A stretch of DNA of 35,000 bases from NCBI GenBank assembly GCA_035480635.1, contig DATIHN010000004.1:1-35000 (forward strand). Direction: 5' to 3'. Positions 7,465-11,745 of the stretch are shown piece by piece. The position numbers were made by a program, and so were the translations under genes. This DNA is from Candidatus Saccharimonadales bacterium. GTDB taxonomy: Bacteria; Patescibacteriota; Saccharimonadia; UBA4664; DATIHN01. Each line of letters opens with the position of its first letter. Positions within the stretch are counted from its first letter, which is position 1. The notes under the pieces are model-generated. The model worked only from the letters and a program-made list of their open reading frames with translations, made no database searches and was not told where the DNA came from.

Positions 7465-8454
7465 ATGATTGCCTTATTAATTGCGCTATTCATTTTGGTT
7501 ATGGGCGGTTTTGCCTTGATTATTCTGCTACTCAATCAACGAATTGGTGAGCTCAAAAACGATAGCGGCTTGCATTTATTAAAAGCCGACATGGCTGGTA
7601 TGAGCACCCAAATCACATCTACCACCAAAGAGATCAATGACCGCTTGAGCCAGGCAGCCGGGTACATGATGGGTGTTCAGCAGGAGCTGGGTAAGATGCA
7701 AGAAATCGGCCGCAGCATGAAAGATCTACAGGATTTCCTGCGTTCACCGAAATTGCGCGGTAACGTTGGGGAGCAGGTCTTGCGCGATTTGTTGCAGCAG
7801 ATGATTCCTAAAAACAACTTTGACCTTCAATATGGCTTTAAGTCTGGCGAAAAGGTCGACGCCATAGTTAAAACCAAGAATGGCCTGATTCCGATCGATG
7901 CTAAGTTTCCAATGGAAAACTTTAATCGGGCCATGAAGGCAGCCGATGAGGCCGACAAGGCTAAGTACCTTAACGAATTTGCAAAGGACGTGCGCAAACA
8001 CATTAATTCGATTGCCAGAAAATACATTTTACCTGGAGAGGGGACGGTTGATTTTGCTCTAATGTATGTACCTAGTGAGGCCATTTACTATGAGATTTTG
8101 GTCAATTCAGACCTGCAAAACTCCGGTATCGACCAAAAAGTTTACATGGTTTCGCCTAATACCTTCTATTACTTCTTGCAAACCATAATGCTTTCGCTCG
8201 AGGGCGAAAAGGTTGAAGAAAAGGCCAAATTGGTCTTGCAGGCGCTCAAGGGTATCCAACAAGACACCCGGAAATTTGGCGACGAACTTGATTTGGTCGG
8301 CGGGCACCTAACCAGAGCCAAGAACGCCATGGAGGGCGCTAGTTCCAGTTATGCTAAACTATCAACTAAGATTGAGACGACTGGCCAGCTGCAAGCTGCC
8401 AGCGTTGATGAGATCGAGGAAGTGACCGAAAAACTGGGAGCACCGCAAGGGTGA
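7465..8454 (+). CDS. rmuC: DNA recombination protein RmuC homologue
   Basis: A 329-residue protein with an N-terminal membrane anchor (residues 1-25), a coiled-coil region (30-95), then the RmuC nuclease-like domain: LRSPKLRGNVGEQVLRDLL, VDAIVKTKNGLIPIDAKFPMENF and VDFALMYVPSEAIYYEIL are family hallmarks. RmuC limits inversions at short repeats in E. coli and its core resembles PD-(D/E)XK nucleases. It is shorter than the E. coli protein (about 475), mostly in the coiled coil. The last four bases overlap the trpS start (GTGA), so the two are translationally coupled. Confidence 0.93.
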   Translation: MIALLIALFILVMGGFALIILLLNQRIGELKNDSGLHLLKADMAGMSTQITSTTKEINDRLSQAAGYMMGVQQELGKMQEIGRSMKDLQDFLRSPKLRGNVGEQVLRDLLQQMIPKNNFDLQYGFKSGEKVDAIVKTKNGLIPIDAKFPMENFNRAMKAADEADKAKYLNEFAKDVRKHINSIARKYILPGEGTVDFALMYVPSEAIYYEILVNSDLQNSGIDQKVYMVSPNTFYYFLQTIMLSLEGEKVEEKAKLVLQALKGIQQDTRKFGDELDLVGGHLTRAKNAMEGASSSYAKLSTKIETTGQLQAASVDEIEEVTEKLGAPQG

Positions 8455-9443
8455 AACGAATTTTATCGGGTATTCAACCGAGTGGCGATGTCACGCTCGG
8501 CAATTATTTGGGCGCCATGAAGCGCTGGTCAACCCTCGAGCAAACCAAGGGCGGTGAGTACTTTTACTTTGTGCCCAACCTCCATGCCCTAACCAACCGC
8601 CCTAACCCAGATGAACTCAAGCAAAAAACGCTCTCAGCTGTGGCTTGGCTACTAGCCTTAGGCATCGATCATAAGCGCAGTCACATTTACGTTCAGTCCC
8701 AGATTCCCCAACATAGCGAACTGATGTGGATCCTTAGCAATTACACTGGCTTTGGGGAGTTATCACGCATGACTCAATTCAAAGACAAGAGCCAAAAGCT
8801 GGGGCCCCAGGGTCAAGTGGCTGGTCTGTTTCTGTATCCGGTGCTAATGGCGGCCGATATCCTACTCTACGACGCTGATGAAGTCCCAGTCGGTCAGGAT
8901 CAGATTCAGCACGTTGAGCTAGCCCGAGACATTGCTGAGCGTTTCAATAAAGTCTACGGCCCGACCTTTCGAGTCCCCAAGGCCACTGTTCAAGATTCGG
9001 GCGCCAAGATTATGGATTTACAGGATCCAACCAAGAAAATGAGCAAAAGCGATGGGACTAGCAACCTCGGCTGCATTTTCTTGACCGATAGCTCTGAGAC
9101 GATGAAGCAAAAGATCATCAGGGCAGTGACTGATTCCAGCGGTCAAATCCGGTTTAGATCCGGGCAACCAGCGGTTAGCAATTTACTAACAATTTATAGT
9201 TTATTATCCGATCGACCGATTGAAGACATCGAGAAAAGCTATCATGACTCAGGTTATCAAGACTTTAAGTCCGATCTGGCCGAATTACTGATCAAAGTTC
9301 TGGATCCCGTCCAAAAACGCTTCCAAGAAATCATGGATGATCAAGCAGAGCTCGAAAAAATCATCGAGATGGGCAGCGATAAGGCTGCTGACCTAGCGGA
9401 TACTAAGTTAGTTCAGGTTAAAACTACTCTCGGATTGCTCTAA
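8451..9443 (+). CDS. trpS: Tryptophanyl-tRNA synthetase
   Basis: A 330-residue class I aminoacyl-tRNA synthetase that charges tRNA-Trp. SGIQPSGDVTLGNYLGAMK contains the HIGH-equivalent TLGN. The tryptophan pocket regions HALTN, GELSRMTQFKDK and MAADILLYDADEVPVGQDQ are intact, and KKMSKSD is the KMSKS loop. Length is normal for bacterial TrpS. The start is a GTG overlapping the rmuC stop by 4 nt. No T-box leader is present upstream, as expected for an internal operon gene. Confidence 0.97.
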   Translation: MKRILSGIQPSGDVTLGNYLGAMKRWSTLEQTKGGEYFYFVPNLHALTNRPNPDELKQKTLSAVAWLLALGIDHKRSHIYVQSQIPQHSELMWILSNYTGFGELSRMTQFKDKSQKLGPQGQVAGLFLYPVLMAADILLYDADEVPVGQDQIQHVELARDIAERFNKVYGPTFRVPKATVQDSGAKIMDLQDPTKKMSKSDGTSNLGCIFLTDSSETMKQKIIRAVTDSSGQIRFRSGQPAVSNLLTIYSLLSDRPIEDIEKSYHDSGYQDFKSDLAELLIKVLDPVQKRFQEIMDDQAELEKIIEMGSDKAADLADTKLVQVKTTLGLL

Positions 9444-9617: not shown

Positions 9618-9646
9618 TTGACACGTCATTTCGCTTATGCTAGCAT
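9618..9646 (+). promoter_or_regulatory. Consensus sigma70 promoter of a non-coding RNA
   Basis: TTGACA (9618-9623), exactly 17 nt, then TAGCAT (9641-9646). It is the only perfect -35 hexamer with ideal spacing that I found in the window. Expected transcription start is about 9653. What follows is not a gene for almost 490 nt. Confidence 0.75.
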
Positions 9647-9840
9647 AAGGTCAAGTTGAATGCTCAACTTGCACCTTTCCCGCACTACTATAGACCTTCA
9701 CCCAGGTAACTTACTTGTCTCAAACGAGTAGGGAGTAACGGTAGGGACAGCCCGAATTAGAAGTATCCCCCTTACCTCTAATTCGGACTCACCCTACTGT
9801 TCAAGCCGGCCAGTGCGGCTGGCGGCGGTTCTGGTGGGAT

Positions 9841-9865
9841 CTGGTCGTGGCCCCTGGTCGTGGCC
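9841..9865 (+). repeat. Tandem direct repeat in the loop of the 14-bp hairpin
   Basis: CTGGTCGTGGCC occurs at 9841-9852 and again at 9854-9865, with a period of 13 nt. The two copies straddle the apical part of the hairpin, so alternative registers of pairing are possible. Confidence 0.7.
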
Positions 9866-10051
9866 AGATCCCACCAGAGTCCAGACGATGGTGGGGGTCG
9901 CGGTTGCCACTTGGCAGCCACCCAACTCGTTCTTTGTGCGCCCTGTTTCGGCCGCGCAAGGAGCCAGGCTCGGGGCGACAAGCGCCAATTAAGTAATTAC
10001 TTTTGGGCGGATTTCGTCGCCCCGAATACCGATTTTTATAAATCGCAACCG

Positions 10052-10073
10052 CCACGCCGCCAGCGTGGTTTTT
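10052..10073 (+). terminator. Intrinsic terminator ending the non-coding RNA
   Basis: CCACGC (10052-10057), a 5-nt loop, GCGTGG (10063-10068), then five T. It lies 64 nt before the purM start, so it either ends a free-standing RNA or acts as an attenuator in front of purM. Confidence 0.75.
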
Positions 10074-10137
10074 GCATTTACAGGTTAGATATGGTTAACT
10101 TCAGGAGTAGTTCGAACCTCGAAAACTGGAGTTAGTC

Positions 10138-11265
10138 GTGAGTGGTGAAATTAAGGGCGAATACGCTCTGGCTGGAGTTGACTACAGCATCCTCCAAGGC
10201 TTCAAAGACCTGATGGTTGAGATGGGCAAAAAGACCCTCAACTTTCCCAACTTCCGGGGTGTTTACGTTCAAAATATCCGGCATTCGCACGGAGTGGTCT
10301 TTGACTATCTCGGGCCTCGTAAGCATCGGTGGTGTAACACCACCGAGGGACTCGGGAACAAGAACTGGATCGCCGAGTGGATGTATCAGTACGCTGGGAC
10401 CGGGCGGACCTACTACGAGGGCATCGGCATAGATATGCTCCTGATGGCGGTTAATGACGTCATTGCTCAGGGGGCCATGCCAGCTGTCTACACCGACGAG
10501 GTTGCGGCAGGGGACGGGGAATGGTTCTTGGACGAACATAGGGCCAGGGATTTTGCCGACAGCCTCCTAAATGGGCTAATGGCCGACGGCATTGCTTTGC
10601 CAGCGGGGGAGACACCAGCCTTGAAGCACCTCATCAACTCAACGCCGCCAGTGATCAGTGCGCCATCACTTAGCGGAACCATCACCGGCATCATTGCTCC
10701 CAGAAGTCGCCTGATCACCGGTGAAGAATTGCAGCCCGGCGATCACATTCTGGGCGTAGCCTCATCGGGTATCCACGCCAATGGCATCTCGCTAGTTATT
10801 AAGCGAGCATTGGATTTGCCAGACCAGTTCCTGACCAAGCTACCGAATGGGCAGATGCTGGGCGAGGAAGCTCTAATCCCGACAACTTCGTACGTCCATC
10901 TCGTCGAAGCACTGCTGGATGAGGCGGTTCAAATACACGCACTCCTTCCCGGCACCGGTGATGGCATCGCCAAACTGGCCTTCGACAAGCGCCCCTTCAC
11001 TTACCGTGTTCACTCTTGGGTACAGGAAATCCCACCGCTCTTCCTATTCATGCAAGAACTCGGCGTCAGCTTGATTGACTGCCTGACGACCTTTAACTGG
11101 GGGATTGGCTATTACATCTTCCTGCCCGAGAACGAGGTTGAGCGTGCCATCCAAATTGGCACCAATGCTGGATACGAGATCCTGGAGGTCGGAAGAGTCG
11201 AAGAAGGCGAGCGTCAAACCATTTTCGAACCAGCCGGACTAACTCTACCGCCACCTGGCGACTAG
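10138..11265 (+). CDS. Divergent PurM-family (AIR synthase-like) protein
   Basis: A 375-residue protein with the PurM/AIR synthase fold order. GIDMLLMAVNDVIAQGAMP at 97-115 matches the GIDLVAMNVNDLLVQGA strand-helix, ALPAGETPALKH matches the IGGETAEMPG loop, GDHILGVASSGIHANGISLV matches GDVLIGLASSGLHSNGYSLV, then LIPTTSYVHLVEAL, PPLFLFMQELGVS and FNWGIGYYIFLPE. The phosphate-binding DGVGTK is changed to EGLGNK (70-75) and the GLGGFG loop is absent. In purine synthesis PurM closes the imidazole ring of AIR using ATP. Whether this variant does so is doubtful, and no other pur gene is in view. GTG start, with GGAG about 6 nt upstream. Confidence 0.85.
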   Translation: MSGEIKGEYALAGVDYSILQGFKDLMVEMGKKTLNFPNFRGVYVQNIRHSHGVVFDYLGPRKHRWCNTTEGLGNKNWIAEWMYQYAGTGRTYYEGIGIDMLLMAVNDVIAQGAMPAVYTDEVAAGDGEWFLDEHRARDFADSLLNGLMADGIALPAGETPALKHLINSTPPVISAPSLSGTITGIIAPRSRLITGEELQPGDHILGVASSGIHANGISLVIKRALDLPDQFLTKLPNGQMLGEEALIPTTSYVHLVEALLDEAVQIHALLPGTGDGIAKLAFDKRPFTYRVHSWVQEIPPLFLFMQELGVSLIDCLTTFNWGIGYYIFLPENEVERAIQIGTNAGYEILEVGRVEEGERQTIFEPAGLTLPPPGD

Positions 11266-11373: not shown

Positions 11374-11745
11374 GTGGCAACCAAACTAAATCAGCTTAAG
11401 GTTGGGTTTTACGGTGCGATCGCCTGGGTTTTTGTAATCGCTGCCCTGTGGCTAGCAACCCCAGCGAACCTGAAGCCAATCGGGGTCACCCTGTGGTTTT
11501 TGTTTCTAGCACTAGGTCTGTGTTGCATCCTAGCCTTGATTATCGATGCGGCCAAAAGACTATTTGGCCCCAAGAAAGCCGAAGGACGCTCATTTGAGCC
11601 TTCGCTGCGTCAAGGAGTTCTACTAGGGTTATGGGCAACGATTTTGCTAGCGATGAGCAGCTTGAGGCAACTAAGCCTAAGGGACACTCTACTTAGTGCC
11701 ATTCTAATAATAATAATAGAAATATATTTGAGACTATCAAAATGA
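11374..11745 (+). CDS. Small integral membrane protein, function unknown
   Basis: A 123-residue protein with about four hydrophobic segments (roughly 14-29, 37-57, 84-96 and 103-118) separated by a basic loop (AAKRLFGPKKAEGR). I do not recognise a family. It begins at a GTG with a GGAAAG motif nearby, and its TGA overlaps the pheS ATG as ATGA, so it is the first gene of a coupled pheST transcript. That link is positional only and does not imply a role in translation. Confidence 0.75.
   Translation: MATKLNQLKVGFYGAIAWVFVIAALWLATPANLKPIGVTLWFLFLALGLCCILALIIDAAKRLFGPKKAEGRSFEPSLRQGVLLGLWATILLAMSSLRQLSLRDTLLSAILIIIIEIYLRLSK

Follow-up and report, generated by a model that had tools for sequence, protein, structure and literature searches.

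A structured non-coding RNA family of Saccharibacteria, very probably undescribed until now, linked to a membrane-protein gene

OLE RNA is a free-standing, large structured RNA whose gene lies beside that of a four-helix membrane protein (PMC11332333), and it was this neighbouring gene that pointed to OapA (PMC11332333; see also PMC12265935). GOLLD and ROOL are large structured orphan RNA classes of unknown function (PMC12286853). Class-wide bacterial RNAs that are absent from Rfam are rare, and the non-coding RNAs of the Candidate Phyla Radiation are little known. The locus analysed here resembles OLE RNA in encoding a free-standing structured RNA next to a gene for a membrane protein predicted to have four helices, but it differs in host (Saccharibacteria rather than Bacillota) and in size (~170-500 nt across the class, compared with about 600 nt), the Rfam OLE model does not match it, and its companion protein belongs to a different family with no resemblance to OapA/CNNM by Pfam or by fold. 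Thus, given the lack of a model match and the different protein, the RNA is not OLE. It shares with GOLLD and ROOL its large size, structure and unknown function, but has no Rfam match and, unlike them, sits in fixed synteny with trpS and the membrane-protein gene.

The DNA analysed (hereafter the window) is a stretch of 35,000 nt from a Candidatus Saccharimonadales genome. Its region 9618-10073 comprises a promoter, a structured transcript and an intrinsic terminator, and the features of the locus are as follows.

8451-9443, + strand: trpS (tryptophanyl-tRNA synthetase, Pfam PF00579), the upstream neighbour, syntenic in the long-form families
9618-9646, + strand: sigma-70-type promoter, with -35 TTGACA at 9618-9623, a 17-nt spacer and an extended -10, hexamer TAGCAT at 9641-9646
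9653-10073, + strand: RNA gene; its start, near 9653, is an inference based on the promoter, and its 3′ end is the terminator
9739-9799, + strand: helix A, a 61-nt, 25-bp hairpin with a 7-nt apical loop UCCCCCU (9766-9772), matched by model R1 at 79.7 bits
9827-9882, + strand: helix B, a long near-perfect hairpin, whose counterparts in relatives differ in sequence
9887-9897, + strand: G-rich stretch GATGGTGGGGG, immediately 3′ of helix B (direct reading)
9971-10024, + strand: helix C, with a GGGGCGAC/GTCGCCCC stem, an internal loop, an inner CGCC/GGCG stem and an A+U-rich loop, matched by models R2 and R3
10051-10073, + strand: intrinsic terminator, a stem-loop GCCACGCCGCCAGCGTGGT at 10051-10069 followed by TTTT(T)
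10138-11265, + strand: AIR-synthase-family (purM-like) gene, between the RNA and the membrane-protein gene
11374-11745, + strand: gene for a 123-aa membrane protein with four predicted helices, which accompanies the RNA throughout the class; an extended -10 (TGCGATAAT) precedes the gene

A preliminary description of this region, made from sequence alone, had proposed a TTGACA-17-TAGCAT promoter, a series of hairpins including a perfect 14-bp stem, a terminator and no credible gene. All of these were present at the locus, the 14-bp stem being part of helix B. No credible gene was found in the gap between trpS and the purM-like gene, where the 84- and 91-aa ORFs are merely mechanical, and protein coding at the locus was rejected. 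The resulting non-coding RNA would be ~420 nt long (9653-10073). Its predicted fold, computed for 9653-10075, had an energy of -208 kcal/mol compared with -146 ± 5.3 kcal/mol in shuffled sequences (z = -11.8), and single hairpins also stood out from shuffles, with z values of -7.6 (9737-9801), -6.4 (9822-9882) and -5.0 (9969-10026).

One rival explanation is that there is no functional RNA here, and that the hairpins came together by chance in a spacer rich in G+C. In its favour, consensus counting placed neither the promoter nor the terminator of the window, each taken alone, above chance (two promoter-like sites in the window stretch compared with 1.8 expected). Against it, compensatory changes and a fixed synteny are conserved across many families, as described below, and we regard this explanation as all but excluded. 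The locus rises above chance because other families show the promoter, the hairpins and the terminator again, in unchanged order. TTGAC[A/T] was present at all 26 homologous loci, most of them with a TG-extended -10 (TATG precedes the hexamer in the window), and the promoter began 77-180 nt upstream of helix A. A terminator-like hairpin was found within 150 nt after helix C at 22 of 26 loci tested, compared with mostly one to three, and at most seven, in shuffles; the 26 loci of this long-form test include three from family f7. We infer from this conserved sequence that the RNA is started by a strong extended -10 promoter and ended by an intrinsic terminator. By inference also, with no expression data at hand, the RNA at 9653-10073 would be expressed and constitutively transcribed; the term 'abundant' used in the preliminary description is likewise only inferred, from a promoter that is strong and conserved. 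As a separate observation, a perfect 16-bp palindrome, CTTATGCTAGCATAAG, at 9634-9649 spans the spacer and the -10 of this promoter, and could be a regulator site or merely reflect the extended -10. Promoters of family f6 carry CATAAGCATAAGC between the -35 and -10 elements.

When 61 genomes were searched at the DNA level, other families of the order and the class yielded two blocks of the RNA (window positions 9737-9805 and 9971-10073), which kept their order wherever both were found. One covariance model was built for each block, R1 for helix A and R2 for helix C. R1 matched nine of the 11 genomes of the order, including all eight that are at least 90% complete. In the class as a whole it matched 26 of 393 genomes, which belong to families f1-f6, f10, f13 and f17. 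R2 found helix C downstream of helix A at nearly all of the R1 loci, and also in f7, where helix A was not detected. Antisense matches to R1 were considered as a possible second RNA and rejected, as they are the same palindromic hairpin read backwards. In families f1-f7, f10, f13 and f17 the RNA follows trpS; elsewhere trpS sits apart and the RNA stays with the membrane-protein gene. What follows the RNA varies: the membrane-protein gene directly, the purM-like gene in the window, purD or a methyltransferase gene in f6 (both recognised by eye from their first residues), or a 0.9-kb gene on the opposite strand in genome G001. In most relatives the membrane-protein gene comes after the RNA without a purM-like gene. 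Such variation downstream is the pattern expected of a free-standing gene.

Within helix A, the five C residues of the apical loop were invariant in 26/26 homologues while the stem below covaries, with compensatory changes in eight of its 25 pairs. Applied to 23 helix A sequences, a tree-based covariation test was of low power (best E = 0.1). Downstream of helix B, direct reading showed that GGATGGTNGGGAAG or a similar sequence replaces GATGGTGGGGG at the same place in many relatives. The CCCCC loop could pair with this G-rich stretch as a pseudoknot in the window (5 bp) and in genome G035 (8 bp), but the pseudoknot was rejected as it is not kept in G001, G004 or f6.

The invariant loop bears on a second rival explanation, in which the RNA regulates in trans: its exposed UCCCCCU and GCACCUU segments would base-pair with mRNAs at G-rich ribosome-binding sites and alter their translation. 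It is supported by the retention of CCCCC in 26/26 homologues over a covarying stem, by the resemblance of the complement, AGGGGG, to a ribosome-binding site, and by the presence of ACCUCCUUU(U/C)C, similar to the 3′ tail of 16S rRNA, in the 5′ part of the f7 RNA. However, the CCCCC loop is restricted to part of the class, the RNA is bigger and more structured than typical pairing sRNAs, and no target is known. We consider this explanation possible.

A broader helix C model (R3), built from 14 sequences, extended the family well beyond the reach of R1. In its alignment 95% of the cells were paired, and eight of the 13 pairs showed double changes (28 double-change cells); none of 500 shuffles scored as high for pairing or covariation. 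For both the R2 and R3 alignments the variable loop was replaced by N and the register of the arms set by eye, and the E-values of the RNA models are rough. R3 matched 83 of the 393 genomes and reached many more families than R1 did, helix C being the most widely conserved part of the RNA. Families detected with R3 only mostly have a shorter RNA (the short form) of ~170-200 nt. Its locus opens with a strong promoter; then come a GUAAG...CUUAC hairpin whose loop is A-rich (CAAAAACAAAAA), a second hairpin that ends in GAGCG and has GUCAGUC after it, helix C and finally a terminator-like hairpin. The last of these was present at 58 of 84 short-form loci, compared with two to six in shuffles. Tree-based covariation analysis of the 84 short forms, a home-made test with a tree-based null which stands in for R-scape, gave six pairs at or above the top null values (E below about 0.03); helix C holds five of them and the second hairpin the other.

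A DNA pattern derived from the short form matched 89 times among the genomes of 84,980 species, essentially all of them Saccharibacteria; by title the matches were Saccharibacteria or Patescibacteria/bacterium bins, with Granulicella as the sole exception. The Granulicella match (L188) and one further match (L236) lacked a promoter, and by our estimate about three chance matches are expected. The short-form set was picked by an exact motif, which in part accounts for how conserved that motif is; loci found with R3 alone also carry it. The large family f9 had almost no R3 match. At most of the f9 loci read, the sequence upstream of the membrane-protein gene contains GGAGCGGUCA or a close variant of it, together with A-rich stretches and a helix like the inner part of helix C. 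We infer from this direct reading, which has not been fully scored, that f9 carries a diverged form of the RNA. Searching downstream of trpS was fruitless in other families because the trpS neighbourhood differs there, and in families missed by the models the RNA was located by reading upstream of the membrane-protein gene. Taken from sequence comparison, helix C would be the core of the family, and the CCCCC-loop hairpin A and helix B would be lineage-specific additions in the lineage of the window.

Known classes were then set against the RNA. With all families of Rfam 15, the RNA region gave no match at the gathering cut-off and the relatives none above it; at E<=10 there were only hairpin matches below cut-off, such as the gyrA RNA (21.3 bits compared with a cut-off of 45), and none beyond chance. 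The RNA of ~400 nt is similar in size to RNase P RNA and tmRNA, but neither model matches it: the only RF00010 match of the genome is at G000:C20:1853-2239, and the only tmRNA match over cut-off (RF00023/ARAGORN) is at G000:C27:9077-9453, with none in the window. Both identities were rejected, as was a T-box leader, for which there was no Rfam match and which is at odds with a position downstream of trpS. A tRNA identity was also tried and rejected. The preliminary description had seen none of the invariant motifs of RNase P, tmRNA and T-box RNAs, and had called for an Rfam search and a covariation test. Both were run: the first gave nothing beyond chance even at E<=10 and the second revealed covarying base pairs among homologues, supporting its view of a free-standing RNA of unknown class. 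Beyond its view lay the extension of the family across the class and its travelling with a membrane-protein gene. We found no earlier description in the open-access literature searched, subscription papers and preprints being mostly outside the search. A real and previously undescribed RNA family in class Saccharimonadia (Saccharibacteria) is very likely; its named members are Saccharibacteria.

A third rival explanation is a diverged 6S-like RNA that binds RNA polymerase. The RNA resembles 6S RNA in standing alone, in its strong promoter, in its conserved neighbouring gene and in the similar size of its short form (~170-200 nt); it is class-wide, and the 6S model RF00013 found no match in this genome. 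That silence says little because the model recovered 6S RNA in only five of 14 control genomes. 6S RNA is defined by an end-to-end rod with a central bubble, whereas the window RNA is predicted, and only predicted, to fold as a row of separate hairpins without a single such rod. We consider a 6S-like identity unlikely.

The companion protein belongs to a family of 110-130 aa with the signatures F..TNP..LP and QSIGQLT.RD, of which the window ORF 11374-11745 is a member. Four helices were predicted for it (mean pLDDT 81). It matched no consistent Pfam or NCBIfam family, giving only scattered weak matches, and no PDB fold at E<=0.001, with no convincing solved relative. The protein family occurs in 364 of the 393 genomes of the class, many of them without a match to the RNA models, so its co-occurrence with the RNA is uninformative until the RNA has been fully scored. 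Wherever an R3-detected RNA and the membrane-protein gene shared a contig, the gene lay downstream on the same strand (76/76), at less than 200 nt in 57 cases and up to 1.8 kb in the rest.

This arrangement raises a fourth rival explanation, that the RNA acts in cis as the 5′ leader of an operon holding the membrane-protein gene (and pheST), with read-through at its terminator under its control. The constant position and strand of the gene, its short distance in 57 of the 76 cases, and the terminator between RNA and gene at most loci speak for it. Against it, other genes are inserted between the two in the window, f6 and G001, while the RNA keeps its own promoter and terminator; because unrelated genes are sometimes inserted, the RNA is not simply the leader of the membrane-protein gene. 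In addition, TATAAT-like hexamers are enriched upstream of the membrane-protein start (38 of 69 compared with 26 in shuffles; 0/200 shuffles as high), so that in many genomes this gene is probably transcribed from a promoter of its own. A leader role remains possible.

The reading we favour over these rivals is that the stand-alone RNA would form a particle, as its RNA component, with the four-helix membrane protein encoded downstream. The particle would be held at the membrane, the RNA acting with the protein as OLE RNA does with OapA, and conserved unpaired motifs (the CCCCC loop, GCACCUU and GGUCA) may contact further partners. We favour it because the linkage survives both gene insertions and a changed trpS neighbourhood, and because OapA was reached by the same clue; the RNA promoter and terminator stay intact despite an inserted purM-like, purD, methyltransferase or opposite-strand gene. 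This mechanism rests on analogy, with no binding data and with the membrane location inferred, and we judge it more likely to fail than to hold. The stand-alone family RNA and the membrane particle, taken jointly, also fall short of an even chance. That the RNA and the membrane protein are partners does not follow from conserved synteny alone, and other RNAs, such as 6S, have conserved neighbours too. A bolder reading, which we put forward only as a possibility, is that the RNA is ancestral and near-universal in Saccharibacteria, acting in a membrane-bound ribonucleoprotein with the four-helix protein, and so would be a second, independent OLE-OapA-like machine in ultrasmall bacteria of the Candidate Phyla Radiation. 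Genomes of mostly about 1 Mb or less still devote 170-500 nt to this RNA. Its fixed pairing with one membrane-protein gene offers a direct, testable hypothesis of its partner; some Saccharibacteria are grown in the laboratory.

Several smaller observations concern motifs within the RNA. GCACCUU lies at window positions 9669-9675 and recurs at varied positions of the RNA in f1, f2, f6 and f9. A short ORF such as ATGCCACATATCAAACCACCATAG (MPHIKPP-stop) occurs in the 5′ part of the RNA at loci L038, L041, L043, L045 and L047, and is similar across several f6 genomes; this 7-codon ORF, conserved in part of f6, was rejected, as it is lost in sister genera. In the f7 RNA (L018, L054/L097 and L096), a conserved GCUUGCUGGAGGGCG downstream of the 16S tail-like ACCUCCUUU(U/C)C could pair with it.
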